Assembly (NCBI GenBank): GCA_945881915.1
Contig: CAMCVW010000004.1
Location: forward strand, 1-64,000
Length of the DNA stretch: 64,000 nt
Reading direction: 5' to 3'
Origin: Thermoflexus hugenholtzii JAD2
GTDB taxonomy: Bacteria > Chloroflexota > Chloroflexia > Chloroflexales > Roseiflexaceae
How positions within the stretch are numbered: position 1 is the first letter of the stretch; every line of letters begins with the position of its first letter. Below are positions 25,883 to 33,866 of the stretch, one piece after another. Below the pieces are notes generated by a model. It ran no database searches, was not told where the DNA came from, and worked only from the letters and a program-made list of their open reading frames with translations. The translations under genes were made by a program, and so were the position numbers.

Positions 25883-27044
25883 GTAAGCGTTGGGCGAATC
25901 CAAAAAGACATACTCCTACCACGATCGTGGTGATAAGGGCGATGTGGAGCGAAGTCAATTCTGCGATGTTCCCAATCAGAGGGGCGCAGACAATGAATGA
26001 CATATAGGTAATCGACATTAACGCCCCAGAAAATGCACTATTTTGGCCAGGGACGAGCTTTGCGCCCGCAGTCAGTGCGGTTGGGATCGGACCAGCTGCA
26101 CCAAAACCCAGAATGGCAAAGGCAGCAATTGCAAACCACAGACTATCTGTTGCAAAAAGCAACACTCCGGAGACGGTAATGGCTACCGCCGAGACCATGA
26201 TTGAACGGACTACCCCGAATCGATTGACAATCGATGCATTCGTCATTCTGCCGACAAACATCACGGTATTGAACAACGCAAATCCGAATCCGCCGATGAC
26301 GGCCGAGGCTCCTAAATTGCTCAAGTGAAGGACCGACCACGTAATCGCGATTCCTTCGGCAAATGCCGCAAAAAAGCTAATCATGCTGAGCGTCAACACG
26401 ATGTTATTTGTGCGCAGGAGCCGGAATGCTGCGCCTGCGTCACTCGTGCCCTCTTGGACAACGCTCATCGGGAAGCGCAAAAAGAGGTTCACGAGAGCCA
26501 AAATGCCACCTATCCCTGCGATTCCCCACAAAATCTGTGCGTATGAAACTCCCACCTGGAGTAATTGTCCTGCAAGCAAACTCGAGATAACTGCCCCGGC
26601 GCAGAATACCGCGTGCACGTAATTCATGACACTTCGACCACGTTCACGTTCCCAGTCAAGTGTGACGGAGTTAATGGTAATCTCGATCGTGCCGTATCCC
26701 AACCCATAGAGGAGATTTACCAGTGCAAAATGCAATGGTGATGCCGCGGCCGATAATGTCATTGTGGCAGCGGTTATGATGATGAGTCCGATGGTCAGTG
26801 CGATGCGCTTTCCCATGCGCTCGATCACCGGGCCGCCAAACAACAAAATAAATACAGCCGTCAACGGCGCGATGAGTGAAAGTTCGCCAAACAAAGCTTC
26901 ACCCATGCCGGTTGCAGGCATGATATCCTTCCAAAAAACGCCATTGGCACCAATGCTGAATCCGAAAAACACGAACACCGCGAAAACCATTGCAATCACA
27001 CCGCGGTGATGCCACTGACGAGCCTGTTGCAAAAGAACCTCCAT
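25857..27044 (-). CDS. MFS transporter
   Basis: A 395-residue major facilitator with about 12 transmembrane helices. The loop after TM2 carries GGPVIERMGKRIA (equivalent to the family GxxxDRxGRR signature) and the N-half has FGFSIGANGVFWKDIMP. No substrate-specific signature is recognised. The ATG at 27044 is chosen; no ribosome binding site precedes it, but a TATACT on the minus strand (27067-27072) could be a -10, implying a short or nearly leaderless transcript. Divergent from the Gfo/Idh pair at 27146. Confidence 0.88.
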   Translation of the reverse strand: MEVLLQQARQWHHRGVIAMVFAVFVFFGFSIGANGVFWKDIMPATGMGEALFGELSLIAPLTAVFILLFGGPVIERMGKRIALTIGLIIITAATMTLSAAASPLHFALVNLLYGLGYGTIEITINSVTLDWERERGRSVMNYVHAVFCAGAVISSLLAGQLLQVGVSYAQILWGIAGIGGILALVNLFLRFPMSVVQEGTSDAGAAFRLLRTNNIVLTLSMISFFAAFAEGIAITWSVLHLSNLGASAVIGGFGFALFNTVMFVGRMTNASIVNRFGVVRSIMVSAVAITVSGVLLFATDSLWFAIAAFAILGFGAAGPIPTALTAGAKLVPGQNSAFSGALMSITYMSFIVCAPLIGNIAELTSLHIALITTIVVGVCLFGFAQRLHVVTKNAV

Positions 27045-27145
27045 ACTGCGTCGTAATGAGTAATTTAGTATACCATGTTGCTTTTTGCTACAATGACCGC
27101 GAACGCACACCGGTTTGTGTGCTTTGCACCGACGAGGAGGTCGTG

Positions 27146-28141
27146 ATGCGATACGGAATTATTGGCGCAGGTGGAATGGCGATGACGCATGCCTCCCATA
27201 TGCTTCGTCATGCTGCCACAACCCTGGTCGCATGTGCTGCCAAAGAATACGCACCCGCAATGCAGGCACTCACCGCAACAGCCGGCGTTCTGTGTTTTGA
27301 CAATGCCACTGAACTGCTCTCGCGATCTGATATCGATGCGGTCTTTATTGCCACACCCACTGACACTCACGCCCACCTCGCCATCGAAGCTCTCCATGCA
27401 GGCAAGCACGTATTTGTCGAAAAGCCGCTCGCACGAACCGTGGCTGAAGGTCGTGCCATGCTCGCTACTGCACAGGCGACGAACCGAAAAATTTTGTGCG
27501 GGCAGGTGGTACGCTACTTCCCCGAATACGCGCAGTCGCATGACCTGATTACCAGCGGTGCCATTGGCCGCGTCGGGGTGGCACGCACCTCCCGTGCCGG
27601 CGCACACCCACCTCCCGAGAGCTGGTATGCAGATACCCCCCGCAGTGGTGGCGTCGCACTCGACCTGTTGATTCATGATATCGATTGGTTGCTCTGGACC
27701 TTCGGCCCTGTGCAACGCATCTATGCAAAGAGCATCACTGCACGGAACCTCTCTGGTCGTGACGGGGTGTTGGCAATCCTCCGTTTTCATTCGGGGGTAA
27801 TCGCACACGTCGAAGCAAACTGGGCGTACCCCAATGGATTTGTCACCACCCTCGAAGTCGCGGGAAGCGACGGCATTGTGTCGCATCGCAACACCGATGC
27901 CCCAGATGTAAGCCTTCGTCCATACCTGCATACGAGTGCACAACTCGCACCCGACGCATTGGCAATGGAAGACCCCTATTACATCCAATTCTGTGCCTTT
28001 GATGCCTGGCTTCGTGGTGGTCCGACGCCGCGCAGCACGCCGGAAGATAGCCTGCGGAGCCTGGCTACTACACTGGCGATTGTCGAAAGTGCGCAGACCG
28101 GGTCGGTCCTGACATTTTCGCCCGAAGGAGCAGCGCAATGA
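27146..28141 (+). CDS. Gfo/Idh/MocA family oxidoreductase
   Basis: A 331-residue NAD(P)-dependent dehydrogenase-like protein. YGIIGAGGMAMTHA is the Rossmann motif, HVFVEKPLART the EKP motif, and DLLIHDIDWLLW supplies the His-Asp pair in the C-terminal domain. The start ATG at 27146 follows GAGGAGG at 27134-27140. It overlaps the next Gfo/Idh gene by four bases, so the two probably act on one substrate or form an oxidation/reduction pair. Confidence 0.92.
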   Translation: MRYGIIGAGGMAMTHASHMLRHAATTLVACAAKEYAPAMQALTATAGVLCFDNATELLSRSDIDAVFIATPTDTHAHLAIEALHAGKHVFVEKPLARTVAEGRAMLATAQATNRKILCGQVVRYFPEYAQSHDLITSGAIGRVGVARTSRAGAHPPPESWYADTPRSGGVALDLLIHDIDWLLWTFGPVQRIYAKSITARNLSGRDGVLAILRFHSGVIAHVEANWAYPNGFVTTLEVAGSDGIVSHRNTDAPDVSLRPYLHTSAQLAPDALAMEDPYYIQFCAFDAWLRGGPTPRSTPEDSLRSLATTLAIVESAQTGSVLTFSPEGAAQ

Positions 28142-29130
28142 CCACAGACACGATACGTATCGGTATTGCCGGTGTCGCCCATGGCCATGCGCACAGCTAT
28201 GCACGTGCGGGGAAGTCCCTCTCTGGGGTGCAGGTTGTCGGTGTGCATGACCACGACCAGCGCCGCGGTCAGGAATTTGCCGACCACTACGGTTTGCCTT
28301 TTTTTGCCACCATTGCAGCTCTGCTGGCCACCTGTGACACCCTGATGATTGCTTCAGAAAACAGCTACCACCATCCATATGCAATGCAGGCAGCAGCAGC
28401 CAACATTCCGACACTCTGTGAAAAACCGCTGGCTAGCAATGTCGCCGACGCGCGCGCGATGGTGCAGGCGTTTGCCTCTGCTGGGGTCCAGCTCGGCACG
28501 GCCTTCCCCGTCCGTTACAGCCCGGCTGTACGGCGCCTGCGTGACACGATTGTGAATGGCTCATTAGGCGATACGTTGATGGTCAGAGCGACCAACCGAG
28601 GAACCTATCCCGGTGGTTGGTTTGGAGACCCCACGCTCGCCGGCGGCGGTGCAATCATGGATCACACGGTGCATGTCACCGATTTGGTGCGCTGGATTTG
28701 GGGGCGTGAAATCGTCGAAGTCTATGCCGAAGGCGATACCATGTTGCATGACATCCCAGTCGACGACGTCGGCATGCTCTTGCTGACACTCGACGATGGC
28801 ATGGTCGTGAGCCTCGATCCGAGTTGGTCACGTCCTGCTGGTGTCTATCCGACGTGGGGGGATGTCACCATGGAAGTCACCACACAGAATGGTATTGTCA
28901 ATCTTGATACATTTGGACCACACGTTGACCTCTATCAAAAGTCAACCGCGCAGGTCCGTTGGGTGGGTTATGGGGTCAACTTCGATGCGTTCATGATAGA
29001 TGATTGGATCAATGCGGTGCGCACTGGTGGCCCAGCGCCCATTTCGGGCGTAGATGGTCTGCGTGCAGTCGAAGTGGTCGACGCAGCATACCGCTCAGTG
29101 CGAAGTCACCGCCCCGAGCGTGTCCAATAG
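28138..29130 (+). CDS. Gfo/Idh/MocA family oxidoreductase
   Basis: A 330-residue paralogue of the preceding gene. The N-terminal IGIAGVAHGHAHSYARAG has a His-rich variant of the Rossmann loop. EKPLASN is the EKP motif, and MDHTVHVTDLVRWIWG holds the C-terminal His/Asp pair. A GGWFGDP segment lies in the substrate domain. Translationally coupled to the upstream gene. Substrate unknown. Confidence 0.92.
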   Translation: MTTDTIRIGIAGVAHGHAHSYARAGKSLSGVQVVGVHDHDQRRGQEFADHYGLPFFATIAALLATCDTLMIASENSYHHPYAMQAAAANIPTLCEKPLASNVADARAMVQAFASAGVQLGTAFPVRYSPAVRRLRDTIVNGSLGDTLMVRATNRGTYPGGWFGDPTLAGGGAIMDHTVHVTDLVRWIWGREIVEVYAEGDTMLHDIPVDDVGMLLLTLDDGMVVSLDPSWSRPAGVYPTWGDVTMEVTTQNGIVNLDTFGPHVDLYQKSTAQVRWVGYGVNFDAFMIDDWINAVRTGGPAPISGVDGLRAVEVVDAAYRSVRSHRPERVQ

Positions 29131-29137
29131 TACCGTT

Positions 29138-29166
29138 TTGACACGCCCCAAACACGCTGGTATAGT
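29138..29166 (+). promoter_or_regulatory. Sigma70-type promoter of metG
   Basis: TTGACA (29138-29143), a 17-base spacer, and TATAGT (29161-29166). Transcription would begin near 29173, giving a leader of about 155 bases before the metG ATG, just eight bases after the stop of the preceding gene. Confidence 0.85.
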
Positions 29167-29191
29167 TTGGGTAGAGAAGTGGAGTACACCG

Positions 29192-29257
29192 TTGCGTTGT
29201 ACACATCGGTTCGATAACATGATGCACATGACAGACCCCGCGTGGAGAGCGACGTAA
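29192..29257 (+). CDS. Putative Met-rich leader peptide of metG
   Basis: A 21-codon frame beginning at TTG (29192), seven bases after GGAG (29181-29184). It encodes fMRCTHRFDNMMHMTDPAWRAT, with three Met in four codons at 29219-29230, and stops 12 bases before a strong terminator hairpin. An internal ATG at 29219 gives a 12-codon version without a ribosome binding site. Its position between the metG promoter and the terminator and its content of the cognate amino acid suggest a stalling peptide that controls attenuation. Translation is inferred, not shown. Confidence 0.55.
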   Translation: MRCTHRFDNMMHMTDPAWRAT

Positions 29258-29269
29258 CTGTTGCTGATA

Positions 29270-29306
29270 CACCGCGGGTACAGCACGTACCCGCGGTGCT
29301 TTTTTG
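29270..29306 (+). terminator. Intrinsic terminator/attenuator in the metG leader
   Basis: A perfect 12-bp stem (29270-29281 with 29287-29298, loop AGCAC) followed by CTTTTTT. It lies 22 bases upstream of metG, downstream of its promoter. CCCGCG at 29237-29242, inside the leader peptide frame, is complementary to CGCGGG at 29273-29278 in the terminator's left arm, so a competing antiterminator pairing is possible. Confidence 0.85.
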
Positions 29307-29328
29307 TTTAAACAGAATGGAAGGACAT

Positions 29329-31083
29329 ATGGCAGAACATATTCTCGTCTCGGTTGCATGGCCATACGCCAATGGGCCGTTTCATGTAGGGCACATTGCA
29401 GGGGCGTATTTGCCGGCCGATATTTTTGCCCGCTATAGTCGCCAACGCGGCCGTGACGTGCTCATGGTGTCCGGTTCGGATTGCCATGGCACCCCGATTA
29501 CCCTCGCCGCCGAAAAAGAAGGTGTGCCACCGCAGACCATCATCAATCGCTACCACGCCAGCTTTATCGGCACGCTGCAGGCAATGGGCATCACCTTCGA
29601 TCTATTCACCCAGACTTATACCGACAATCACTATGCGGCCACCACCGATATATTCGAGGTGCTGCAGTCCAAAGGGTATATCTACCGCGAAACAGCCGTA
29701 GGGTCGTATTCCGAATCACTTGCACGGTTCCTCCCGGACCGATTCGTCGAAGGCATCTGCCCGAACTGTAAATACGACAAAGCGCGCGGCGACCAATGCG
29801 ACAAGTGTGGGCAACTGCGTGATCCCAAAGAGCTTGGGAGCCCGCGCTCAACCGTCGATGGCGCGCCAGTGACATTCCGTGACACCGAGCACTTCTACCT
29901 CGATTTGGCAAAGCTCGAACCCGGCCTACGCACATGGCTCGATTCGACTTCGCGTGACTACTGGCGCAGCAACACTTTGGCATTCACCCAGAACTGGTTG
30001 CGCGAGGGGCTCCATGGACGTGCGATTACCCGTGACCTCGAGTGGGGAGTGCCGGTTCCTGGCAATCTGGCAGAGTTCAAAGACAAACGTATCTATGTCT
30101 GGTTTGACGCCGTCATCGGGTATTACTCGGCTTCGCTCGAATGGGCAAAACGCACCGGCAACATCGACGCATGGCGCGAATGGTGGGACCCCACAAAGTC
30201 AGCCAAAAGCTACTACTTCATTGGTAAAGACAACATCCCATTCCACACGATCATTTGGCCGGCGATGTTGTTGGGGTACGGAGATCGAGCGTTGCCGTTT
30301 GATGTGCCTGCCAATGAATTCCTCAACCTCGAAGGCGAGAAAATGAGCACTAGTCGTAATTGGGCACTCTGGATGCCAGATTTGCTGACGCGCTACGAAC
30401 CTGATTTGTTGCGCTACTACCTCACCGCAGCAGCTCCCGAAGGCAAAGACAGTAATTGGAGCTGGGCAGAATTTGTGCAGCGGGTCAACAGTGAACTTGT
30501 CGCAACGTGGGGTAATTTGGCCAATCGGGTACTCACATTATCGCAACGCAACTTCGGTGGCGTTCCCACCCCTGGCGAGTTCTTGCCGGTTGACACGACG
30601 CTCATGAACGCCATAGAAGACGGCTTCGTCCGCGTGCAAGAGCTCTATGATGCCGTCAAATTACGCTCAGCGCTCCAAGAAGCGATGTCGTTGGCACAGC
30701 TCGCGAATCAGTATTTGAGTGAACAAGAGCCATGGAAAGTCGTCAAAGTCGATCCGACCCGGGCTGGTACGGTGATTTTTGTGGCGTTACGTGCTGTCGA
30801 TAGCATCAATAGGCTGATGGCTCCCATCATGCCACATGCATGCCAGCGCTTGCACTTCATGCTCGGTTTTGATGATGTGCTCGCGCCGCAACCCGTCATC
30901 GAGACCGAACAAGACCCCGAGGGTAAACCGCGACCAGTGTTGACGGGTGATTATTCCCATCATGCGGGTTGGCATGTCAGTGCACTCAAACCCGGAACAC
31001 TCATCCGCGAACCAGCGCCACTGTTCCGCAAACTCGACGACACACTCGTCGCCGAAGAGCTCGCCCGGTTAGCCACCACATAA
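29329..31083 (+). CDS. metG: Methionyl-tRNA synthetase
   Basis: Charges tRNA(Met) with methionine. The 584-residue class I synthetase starts at the ATG at 29329 (MAEHILVSVAWPYANG) after AAGGA. The HIGH motif appears as FHVGH, the zinc knuckle as CPNC ... CDKC (four Cys), and the KMSKS loop as GEKMSTS. It ends after the anticodon-binding domain without the C-terminal tRNA-binding extension seen in some bacteria. It has its own promoter and an apparent attenuating leader, and is closed by a strong terminator. Confidence 0.97.
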   Translation: MAEHILVSVAWPYANGPFHVGHIAGAYLPADIFARYSRQRGRDVLMVSGSDCHGTPITLAAEKEGVPPQTIINRYHASFIGTLQAMGITFDLFTQTYTDNHYAATTDIFEVLQSKGYIYRETAVGSYSESLARFLPDRFVEGICPNCKYDKARGDQCDKCGQLRDPKELGSPRSTVDGAPVTFRDTEHFYLDLAKLEPGLRTWLDSTSRDYWRSNTLAFTQNWLREGLHGRAITRDLEWGVPVPGNLAEFKDKRIYVWFDAVIGYYSASLEWAKRTGNIDAWREWWDPTKSAKSYYFIGKDNIPFHTIIWPAMLLGYGDRALPFDVPANEFLNLEGEKMSTSRNWALWMPDLLTRYEPDLLRYYLTAAAPEGKDSNWSWAEFVQRVNSELVATWGNLANRVLTLSQRNFGGVPTPGEFLPVDTTLMNAIEDGFVRVQELYDAVKLRSALQEAMSLAQLANQYLSEQEPWKVVKVDPTRAGTVIFVALRAVDSINRLMAPIMPHACQRLHFMLGFDDVLAPQPVIETEQDPEGKPRPVLTGDYSHHAGWHVSALKPGTLIREPAPLFRKLDDTLVAEELARLATT

Positions 31084-31091
31084 ATCCTCCC

Positions 31092-31126
31092 AAAACCCTC
31101 GTGATGGTTCCATCACGAGGGTTTTC
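31092..31126 (+). terminator. Intrinsic terminator after metG
   Basis: AAAACCCTCGTGATGG (from 31092) pairs with CCATCACGAGGGTTTT (to 31125) around a small loop and is followed by a T-rich tail. Located 9 bases past the metG stop. Confidence 0.92.
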
Positions 31127-31145
31127 TCATTTATTGGAGCAGATC

Positions 31146-31583
31146 ATGCGTTTTGGTCATGTGAATCTCGTCGCCCGTGATTGGCGGACATTGGCTGATT
31201 TCTACTGCAGGCACCTAGGGTGCACGTTGCTTGCGCCTGAGCGTGATCTCCACGGTGCGCTGGTCGATGCAGGCGTCGGCGTCGCTGATGCACATATTCG
31301 TGGTGTCCATATCCGACTGCCTGGCTACGACGAAAACGGACCAACCCTCGAGATTTACCGCTACGACCCACTCATCGATGTTGCGTCCAGTGTCCGCCGC
31401 AGTGGATTTGGTCACATCGCCTTTCAGGTCGACGATATCGATGTTACACGTGCGGGGATTTTGGCGGGTGGCGGCTCTGCCATTGGCGACGTCGTCACGA
31501 CCGTTGCAGGCACACGAAATGTCTCTTGGTGCTATGTCGAAGACCCCGAAGGGAACGCCATCGAACTACAACGCTGGCATTGA
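31146..31583 (+). CDS. VOC family (glyoxalase/dioxygenase-like) protein
   Basis: A 145-residue vicinal-oxygen-chelate protein with two beta-alpha-beta-beta-beta modules. Likely metal ligands are His5 (RFGHVNLVA), His95 (FGHIAFQVDD) and Glu140 (GNAIELQRW). The start ATG is eight bases after GGAG. It follows the metG terminator and would need its own promoter or readthrough. Substrate unknown; methylmalonyl-CoA epimerase is already present elsewhere. Confidence 0.88.
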   Translation: MRFGHVNLVARDWRTLADFYCRHLGCTLLAPERDLHGALVDAGVGVADAHIRGVHIRLPGYDENGPTLEIYRYDPLIDVASSVRRSGFGHIAFQVDDIDVTRAGILAGGGSAIGDVVTTVAGTRNVSWCYVEDPEGNAIELQRWH

Positions 31584-31635
31584 CGGCAAATGCCAATCAT
31601 GCAGAAGCGTGTATAGACCGCAGGCGTCCTCAGAT

Positions 31636-32490
31636 TCAGCGTTGGAAGAAGAATAACTCCCCGGGCTTGAATGTATGCACGGCCAAATCAGGAGCTGACC
31701 GTTCAATCTGACTGGCGACTTCCCCCGCAGGCAAGCGGTTGCTGGCAAACAAATCATTGTGCCCTGCGATGAGCGTCTTCCAGCCGAGTGCATCGGCGAC
31801 ATATGCTGCCTCGGCAGGACTCATGTTGCCAGCGATGTCAAGGGCGTTGCGCATTGCATCACTCCCATTGCAGGCGAGAATGCCCACATCAGCCTGCGGG
31901 AGTGCTGCCACTGCAGCAATGTAGCCGTCATAGACAATCGTGTCGCCACCATGGAACAATGCCACAGTGCCCCAATCGAGCAGCATGCTGACCCATCGTT
32001 GACCGCGTTGCGTATCCGATTCGACGGTGTAGTGTGCGGCTGGTACATAGGTCACTCGCAGCACACCGTGATCGTAGGTGATACCGGTGCTCATGGGCAA
32101 GCGCCGATCGGCAGGAATGCGTGCCTCATCCAATATGCCCTGCGCCCACCCCGTTGCAACGAATCGCGCATGCGGCGATGCCCCCAAAATCCCCGCTAGC
32201 GTCTCGCCACTGGTGTGATCACCATGCTCGTGTGAGCAGATGACGAGGCTTGCATTGGTGACTTCCTCTGGGCGCAGCGGTGGTGCAAATGCCCTACCCC
32301 ACAAAAATGTCGGATCGGTCTGCGCGCTGGCCATTGGGCCCACCAAAAACGGATCGATGTAGATCATCCGCTGGTCAGGTCCCTTTATGGCGACGCCCAT
32401 TTGTCCGAGCCACCACAGTGCAAAACTCCCAGCTGGGATGTGCAACGCGTTCATCTGGTCAATGAGGGACTTCCCACTGCGGTGTTTCAT
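31636..32490 (-). CDS. MBL-fold metallo-hydrolase, UlaG-like
   Basis: A 284-residue metallo-beta-lactamase-fold hydrolase. The zinc/manganese-binding SHEHGDH motif, a later His in VPAAHYTVES, GGDTIVYDG and the C-terminal AGHNDLF are visible. The N-terminal WWLGQMGVAIKG and the overall order match the UlaG (L-ascorbate-6-phosphate lactonase) branch, but no ascorbate-utilisation genes are adjacent, so the substrate is open. Convergent with the VOC gene and divergent from the riboswitch-controlled unit. Confidence 0.88.
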   Translation of the reverse strand: MKHRSGKSLIDQMNALHIPAGSFALWWLGQMGVAIKGPDQRMIYIDPFLVGPMASAQTDPTFLWGRAFAPPLRPEEVTNASLVICSHEHGDHTSGETLAGILGASPHARFVATGWAQGILDEARIPADRRLPMSTGITYDHGVLRVTYVPAAHYTVESDTQRGQRWVSMLLDWGTVALFHGGDTIVYDGYIAAVAALPQADVGILACNGSDAMRNALDIAGNMSPAEAAYVADALGWKTLIAGHNDLFASNRLPAGEVASQIERSAPDLAVHTFKPGELFFFQR

Positions 32491-32561
32491 GATTGTGCCT
32501 TTCGTGGCTCATATGCCATAGTGTATCAGGTATGCGCAAGACGCTCCCGGTGGTTGGTGCG

Positions 32562-32590
32562 TTGACAATAACCCCAATGCCGTTTATGAT
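32562..32590 (+). promoter_or_regulatory. Sigma70-type promoter of the TPP-riboswitch unit
   Basis: TTGACA (32562-32567), 17-base spacer, TATGAT (32585-32590). A start near 32597 places the riboswitch at the very 5' end of the transcript. Confidence 0.85.
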
Positions 32591-32607
32591 TCTCACATAA
32601 TTACATA

Positions 32608-32702
32608 GTGCTGGGGGCGCCAAGTGAGCTTGGCTGAGATGCGACCCGAATGTCGCTGACCCTTTGAACCTGATCCGGTTAATACCGGCGGAGGAAAGCT
32701 CG
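32608..32702 (+). ncRNA. TPP riboswitch (THI element)
   Basis: Carries the conserved core of the thiamine pyrophosphate aptamer: GGCTGAGAT at 32632-32640, ACCCTTTGAACCTGATC at about 32659-32675 and GTTAATACCGGCGGAGG at about 32678-32694, the last forming the pyrimidine and pyrophosphate sensor arms. It lies between a promoter and an attenuator-like hairpin, so it probably terminates transcription of the downstream thiamine-binding protein gene when TPP is plentiful. Confidence 0.97.
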
Positions 32703-32716
32703 TGACGCTCACTGCG

Positions 32717-32747
32717 CACCCAGCAAGACATTGTGTGGGTGTTTTTT
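32717..32747 (+). terminator. Expression-platform terminator of the TPP riboswitch
   Basis: CACCCA (32717-32722) pairs with TGGGTG (32736-32741) around an internally structured loop, followed by six T. It lies 21 bases before the start of the controlled gene, which fits a transcriptional off-switch. Confidence 0.75.
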
Positions 32748-32768
32748 ATATATGGAAGGAAGAATCTG

Positions 32769-33866
32769 ATGCGTCGACGTCAATTGTTGGTGATCGCTGC
32801 CCTCATTTTCACTGCATGCGGTCAACCGTCTGTCACGCAGCCCACTGCCGTTTCTGTTGCGCCTCCGACCGAAACGGCATTCATGGTCGATGCACCAACG
32901 GATACGCAACCACTCACGGTAATGACACATGATAGTTTTGCCATCTCGCCTGAAACACTGCTTGCATTCGAACAGCAACACAACGCCAAAGTGACCATCC
33001 TCAACAGCGGTGATGCAGGTAGCATGCTCAATAGAGCAATTTTGAGCAAAGACGCTCCGCTCGCCGATGTGCTCTATGGGGTCGATAACACCTTCCTCAG
33101 TCGTGCCCAGCAAGCAGATGTTTTTGTTGCCTATACCCCCGCCGCGGCGAACTTCACCGACGGCGTCGATCTCTCAAGCAGTGCGCCACTTATTCCCATT
33201 GACCGCGGCTATGTCGTCATTAACTACGACATCGCCGCATTGGCATCACGAGGTCTCGAACCGCCACGCAGTCTGCAGGATTTGTTGATGCCGGAATACA
33301 AGGGCTTGCTCGTCGTACAAAATCCCGCGTTGTCATCCCCCGGGTTAGCGTTCTTGTTGGCAACTGTGGCAGAATTTGGCCCCACCAAGTGGCAAGGCTA
33401 TTGGAAATTGCTGCGTGAAAACGACGTCCTCATTGCACCAGATTGGAACACCGCCTATTACACGCACTTCAGTGGTTCGAGCGGCAAAGGTCCACGCCCA
33501 TTGGTTGTCTCGTATTCGTCGAGCCCTGCAGCCGAGGTCGTTTTCGCAGATCCCAAGCGAGACACTGCTCCCACGGCAAATGTCGATTTTGCGGCCTTCG
33601 AGCAAACAGAATATGTCGGGATTCTCAAAGGTACTCCGCAAGAAACACTGGCAAGGGCCTTTGTAGACTTCATGTTGACCGATACGTTTCAAAACGATAT
33701 GCCGCTGAATATGTTTGTCTATCCCGTCACGAAAAGCGCCGTGTTGCCAGAGGTGTTCCGGAAATTTTCTTCCATTCCCACGGTCCGTGCACAATTGGTC
33801 CCTGCCGAAATAGCAGCTAACCGTGATGCATGGGTCAAAGAGTGGGACGCTATCATGCTGAAGTAG
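32769..33866 (+). CDS. Thiamine ABC transporter substrate-binding lipoprotein
   Basis: A 365-residue exported binding protein of the thiamine/TbpA type. MRRRQLLVIAALIFTAC is a lipoprotein signal with Cys17 as the likely lipidated residue, followed by a Thr/Pro-rich tether. The mature domain begins PLTVMTHDSFAISPETL and has the GDAGSMLNRAILSKDAPLADVLYGVDNTFL region (in parts: GDAGSMLNRAI, ADVLYGVDN) typical of the family. The start ATG follows AAGGAAG. Riboswitch control supports thiamine or a precursor as ligand. The expected permease and ATPase genes do not follow; a P-type ATPase does. Confidence 0.93.
   Translation: MRRRQLLVIAALIFTACGQPSVTQPTAVSVAPPTETAFMVDAPTDTQPLTVMTHDSFAISPETLLAFEQQHNAKVTILNSGDAGSMLNRAILSKDAPLADVLYGVDNTFLSRAQQADVFVAYTPAAANFTDGVDLSSSAPLIPIDRGYVVINYDIAALASRGLEPPRSLQDLLMPEYKGLLVVQNPALSSPGLAFLLATVAEFGPTKWQGYWKLLRENDVLIAPDWNTAYYTHFSGSSGKGPRPLVVSYSSSPAAEVVFADPKRDTAPTANVDFAAFEQTEYVGILKGTPQETLARAFVDFMLTDTFQNDMPLNMFVYPVTKSAVLPEVFRKFSSIPTVRAQLVPAEIAANRDAWVKEWDAIMLK

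Follow-up and report, generated by a model that had tools for sequence, protein, structure and literature searches.

The usual control of aminoacyl-tRNA synthetase genes in many bacteria is the T-box, and the locus considered here raises the question of what controls metG, the methionyl-tRNA synthetase gene, in genome G000 (3.09 Mb), the source of the window (the whole 64-kb stretch of DNA that was analysed). The named relatives nearest to G000 belong to the Roseiflexaceae (Chloroflexota). The oxidoreductase gene upstream of metG ends at 29130, and the gap to metG at 29329 is filled by a leader region with the following features.

29138..29166, + strand: promoter, TTGACA, 17-nt spacer and TATAGT with an extended -10 (TG), from a consensus scan
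29181..29184, + strand: Shine-Dalgarno-like GGAG, 7 nt 5' of the leader start, from the sequence
29191..29200, + strand: segment 1, candidate protector of segment 2, from the MFE fold
29192..29257, + strand: leader peptide frame with TTG start and TAA stop, (f)MRCTHRFDNMMHMTDPAWRAT, the TTG aligned with ATG in three relatives
29219..29230, + strand: putative regulatory codons Met-Met-His-Met, MxM core conserved in the genus
29237..29253, + strand: segment 2, 5' arm of the predicted antiterminator, duplex with segment 3
29260..29278, + strand: segment 3, 3' arm of the predicted antiterminator, pairing with segment 2 and overlapping the terminator left arm
29270..29305, + strand: intrinsic terminator with a 12-bp stem, 5-nt loop and T6 tract, conserved in 8/8 same-genus loci
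29329..31083, + strand: metG, the gene proposed to be controlled, TIGR00398 at 517 bits, above the cut-off

The leader is about 155 nt long. A sequence-only reading of this region had described a TTGACA-17-TATAGT promoter, a 21-codon TTG frame after GGAG with Met-Met-His-Met at 29219-29230, and a 12-bp intrinsic terminator after the leader stop; all three are present, and every position given for them holds. The -35 element (29138-29143) and the -10 element (29161-29166), the latter preceded by TG, together match the consensus at 11 of 12 positions, and TGGTATA is kept in the same-genus alignment, while GGGAG/GGAG is conserved in L018, L019 and the window. The frame of 21 codons ends with TAA at 29255-29257 and has Met codons at 29219, 29222 and 29228, that is, three Met among 20 internal residues; a short frame with that many Met codons arose in 0.6% of the shuffles of this region (p=0.006). 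Eight terminator-like sites are found in the 64-kb window, and only that of metG has an upstream frame with at least three Met codons. The arms of this terminator (29270-29281 and 29287-29298) are followed directly by the T6 tract, and its energy is about -24 to -25 kcal/mol.

The same reading had paired CCCGCG at 29237-29242 with 29273-29278 in the left arm of the terminator. This pairing exists, but its 6 bp are only the core of an antiterminator of about 14 bp, in which 29237-29244 and 29248-29253 pair with 29260-29265 and 29270-29278. The duplex has an energy of -22.9 kcal/mol, as against -12.5 +/- 2.9 kcal/mol in 500 dinucleotide shuffles (p=0.002), and when both are scored as isolated structures the antiterminator (-21.4 kcal/mol) comes near the terminator (-25.0 kcal/mol). 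If a ribosome is taken to cover some 14 nt on the 5' side of its A site and 12 nt on the 3' side, all 14 antiterminator pairs can still form when it stands at the first or second Met codon and 11 when it stands at the third, as against four of the 14 when it stands at the stop at 29255.

This arrangement is probably a trp/pheST-type ribosome-mediated transcription attenuator, predicted from its sequence to sense elongator Met-tRNA and to control metG. Transcription would start near 29173, and a ribosome would translate the 21-codon leader behind RNA polymerase. Where charged Met-tRNA is scarce, the ribosome would stall on the Met codons at 29219-29230, leaving segment 2 free to pair with segment 3; this pairing would occupy the left arm of the terminator, and the polymerase would read into metG. 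Where Met-tRNA is plentiful, the ribosome would reach the stop at 29255 and cover segment 2, so that the terminator would form and transcription would end. Translation of the leader, stalling at low Met-tRNA, termination and the direction of control are all inferred. Methionine is also needed for translation initiation, and since the same amino acid initiates the leader, severe Met starvation should cut leader translation and so limit the response; the attenuator may work only over a moderate range of starvation.

When the full window leader is folded at equilibrium, the terminator has a probability of 0.98-0.99 whichever ribosome state is simulated. Such folds with ribosome masks were rejected as a test of switching: they are uninformative, the terminator winning in nearly all states. 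Given this outcome, any switching would have to be kinetic and take place while the RNA is being transcribed, where the order of events is also what counts in known attenuators. In the MFE fold without a ribosome, segment 1 pairs with 29249-29258, with p=0.12 against shuffles in the window. This candidate protector pairing 1:2 is above shuffles in three of the six genomes of genus g4 (L026, L028 and L029, p 0.003-0.037), where the 5' part of the frame can pair with segment 2, completing the 1:2, 2:3 and 3:4 attenuator plan, and it is not clearly conserved outside g4.

The attenuation logic proposed by the sequence-only reading is supported by comparative sequence evidence. When the metG upstream regions of relatives were compared, as had been suggested, the peptide frame was found to be kept with the hairpin: leader frame and terminator are present in 8/8 same-genus genomes with metG, and in seven genera in all. 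Loss of the frame with retention of the hairpin in relatives had been named beforehand as a refuting outcome, and the comparison did not refute the reading. The TTG of the window aligns with ATG in L017-L019, whose peptides are MRRSRRYTHQMQMTTPAC, MRRIRRYTHMMQMTTPAC and MRRIRRYTQLMHMTTPAC. Between the frames of L018 and L019 there are nine differences at third positions and one at a first or second position, as expected for a translated frame; the codon-position comparison of the window with L017-L019, in which the window is more divergent, shows no third-position bias. The element pattern occurs once per same-genus genome, at metG, with an extra one-mismatch match in G005, and the element is confined to metG apart from such isolated weak pattern matches.

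Across the family, a Met-rich leader frame with a terminator precedes metG in 20 of the 22 Roseiflexaceae genomes holding this gene, the two exceptions being G015, where none was found, and G020, in which the contig ends 229 nt upstream of metG; genus g6 (L031) is without the element. The leader peptides differ considerably between the genera: they include, for example, MRTPRDMPDDRLPRAMRMMGIMSPAVCMSPG in g4, where the frames have 30-33 codons and indels come in multiples of three, as well as MMDRPINFNIMRMGMDMCRAIPVVSLC in g2, MSARRRQPGMLMWRSMTVASACRAAGGASA in g3, MYCDRDLQMGMNMCRRTPVISPC in g5, MVLLRDTMFINRPCAMRMRSMSMCIPTEGVSPG in g7 and MTDGHYNQYISSQTAMRMHMMGMAVPAAGVSPG in g8. An M-x-M-x-x-P core is conserved in most genera, and a single internal Met codon is retained in L035 (g3). 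Outside the family, 38 metG upstream regions include some frames with at least three Met codons, but this core was found in none of them. Methionine is the only residue enriched over frame shuffles in all eight groups (mean log2 2.8), the next being cysteine (log2 0.45, six groups). As a separate observation, the metG of L007 (CALQBW020000004.1) is 81% identical to that of this Roseiflexaceae genus; the public record has the title Singulisphaera sp. GP187, which is probably a labelling error.

The position of the Met codons relative to the antiterminator is likewise constant. In the window they lie 18, 15 and 9 nt 5' of the antiterminator arm. The arm could be defined in 17 leaders, of which 15 have a Met codon exactly 15 nt 5' of it, 13 have one 9 nt 5' of it, and 16 have one at either or both of these distances. 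The spacing is kept although the arm is CCCGCGUG in g1 and CCUGCGGUC in g4, and it would place the leading edge of a Met-stalled ribosome at the start of the arm. The conserved distances of 15 and 9 nt may represent a natural ruler for the stalled ribosome.

The antiterminator duplex itself exceeds shuffles (p<=0.024) in the window and in L017-L019, in each of the six g4 genomes, and in L024 and L035. Its extended form is no stronger than shuffles in subgroup g1b (p about 0.2-0.26), and none was found in g2 or g5 (L032, L033). In g4 and its allies the antiterminator has 14-17 bp of other sequence, e.g. UUGCCUGCGGUCUGCGU with ACGCAGGCCGUGGGCAG in L028. In an alignment of eight g4-type sequences, 94.6% of the antiterminator cells pair, as against 34-49% when the partner is slid by one to three columns, and two pairs have changed on both sides, including a change from G-C to A-U in three sequences. 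The covariation score of this sister-genus antiterminator was reached by one of 500 shuffles, which only partly control for relatedness. The terminator helix is well paired and nearly invariant. Two further elements were observed in the stretch from the leader terminator to metG. One, directly 3' of the terminator in L025-L030 of genus g4, is a possible second promoter (TTGCAT, 17 nt, TATCCT), which could provide basal, unattenuated metG transcription; the other, in L067 (G016), is a short frame, MAKKRSTQKERARPGNKPTFGKPPGGHNTPLSRRPPRQPGR.

In other Chloroflexales families, metG is preceded by a different conserved frame ending in W-x-G-[LIV]-[RL]-L-T-A-[RG]-G-[FY]-M, and A-[GA]-stop and a hairpin often come after this WxGLRLTARGFM-type end. 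The pattern was found in 17 of 400 Chloroflexota genomes, once in each and in all 17 upstream of metG, with no control matches; loci with this leader include L038, L040, L042, L044, L046, L047, L050, L053, L060-L066 and L068. Summed over pairs of sequences, which are non-independent, there are 58 differences at first, 49 at second and 196 at third codon positions, and this third-position excess points to conservation of the peptide itself, which extends to two genomes lacking the hairpin. These features suggest that the second leader may function as a nascent-chain arrest sensor. In L024 (G017) both leaders stand in tandem, between about 460 and 147 nt 5' of metG: the Met-rich frame with its terminator comes first, followed by a frame ending RGFMAG-stop and then by metG. 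It is about an even chance that metG in the Chloroflexales is under two unrelated leaders, a Met-codon attenuator in the Roseiflexaceae and elsewhere an arrest-like peptide whose own sequence would be the sensor. If so, this would be the first case in which methionine, the residue that also starts every protein, is the signal for ribosome-mediated control. Related-looking metG leaders ending in R-M-A-A were also observed in L031, L039, L041, L043 and L051; immediately 3' of the ATG they have a hairpin (GGCGGC/GCUGCC) whose arms seem to covary.

An alternative sensor in the Roseiflexaceae would be the leader peptide itself, with its M-x-M-x-x-P core, instead of codon hunger: the nascent chain would stall its ribosome on sensing methionine, Met-tRNA or some related signal, and this stalling would set off the same RNA switch. 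The conservation of the core across most genera would agree with this, as would the purifying selection on the N-terminal MRRIRRYT in g1 and the second metG leader of other Chloroflexales, which clearly looks peptide-specific. However, little is shared between the peptides of the genera beyond their Met residues, the number of Met codons ranges from two to six, and the antiterminator arm starts at the Pro codon of the core, which explains the conservation of the proline at the RNA level. Peptide arrest is an unlikely explanation of this leader. Still less probable is an ordinary terminator accompanied by a fortuitous or generic frame, which would end the transcripts of the upstream oxidoreductase gene or cause a constant partial termination. 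The hairpin is strong, wins at equilibrium and is flanked by two genes of the same orientation, as such a terminator would be. Against this, the promoter sits between the upstream gene and the leader, and that gene is common only to L017-L019 among 19 family loci, whereas the leader persists across genera; the leader stays when the upstream gene changes, which argues that it is more than the terminator of that gene. The Met enrichment, the codon-arm spacing and the coding signature of the frame also speak against a mere terminator.

Control of metG by a T-box, or by another riboswitch binding tRNA or a ligand, would seem plausible from the abundance of T-boxes in these genomes, with five matches elsewhere in G000 and matches in all 40 genomes searched. 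An Rfam scan of 27000-33500 at E<1, however, gave no T-box or other family at the metG leader, and no riboswitch or T-box match at E<0.1 was obtained at the metG loci of the relatives; nor does any of the described Rfam amino-acid leader families match the leader of the window or those of its relatives. A significant score of a T-box or riboswitch model had been named beforehand as a finding that would overturn the attenuation reading, and none was obtained. The leader of some 155 nt is, moreover, dominated by its coding frame, and T-boxes and other riboswitches were rejected as candidates on the Rfam scans; such control is highly improbable here. The one match within 27000-33500 was a TPP riboswitch at 32603-32713 (79.1 bits), upstream of a substrate-binding lipoprotein-like frame (32733-33866).

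An attenuator for metG, for Met codons or for the Chloroflexi was not found in the open-access literature, of which coverage was partial, and control by leader-peptide attenuation is apparently previously undescribed for metG. Methionine would be an unusual signal for a ribosome sensor, since the leader itself needs Met-tRNA to initiate. Among known systems, pheM-pheST of Escherichia coli, in which a leader peptide rich in cognate codons and a terminator control a synthetase operon, is similar in placing these elements in that order before a synthetase gene. It differs in that Phe is sensed there and Met here, in the phylum and in the lack of any sequence relation, as well as in that the amino acid sensed by the metG leader also initiates translation. 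The trpL and hisL attenuators follow the segment plan 1:2, 2:3 and 3:4 with the regulatory codons just before segment 2, and the metG leader resembles them in its Met codons lying shortly 5' of segment 2 and in its predicted pairings 2:3 and 3:4. Those attenuators control biosynthesis operons rather than a synthetase gene, and the protector pairing 1:2 of the metG leader is supported only in part of g4. T-boxes before synthetase genes, among them the Met-specific ones of Firmicutes, bind uncharged tRNA directly, without a translated leader. Like the proposed attenuator, T-box control senses tRNA charging and prevents a terminator before a synthetase gene; the metG leader, unlike a T-box, would be translated, and it has no T-box match. 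As these genomes also carry T-boxes, two sensors of tRNA charging can coexist in one genome. Attenuators before synthetase-type genes outside the Proteobacteria have been predicted by comparative genomics for the His leader peptides of hisS paralogs and hisZ in bacilli (PMC2965389) and, as a candidate, for trpS2 of Streptomyces avermitilis (PMC1262725). The metG leader resembles these in kind and differs from them in the amino acid, Met rather than His or Trp, and in the phylum, Chloroflexota rather than Firmicutes or Actinobacteria; it would add methionyl-tRNA synthetase, and the phylum Chloroflexota, to the known range of leader-peptide attenuation.
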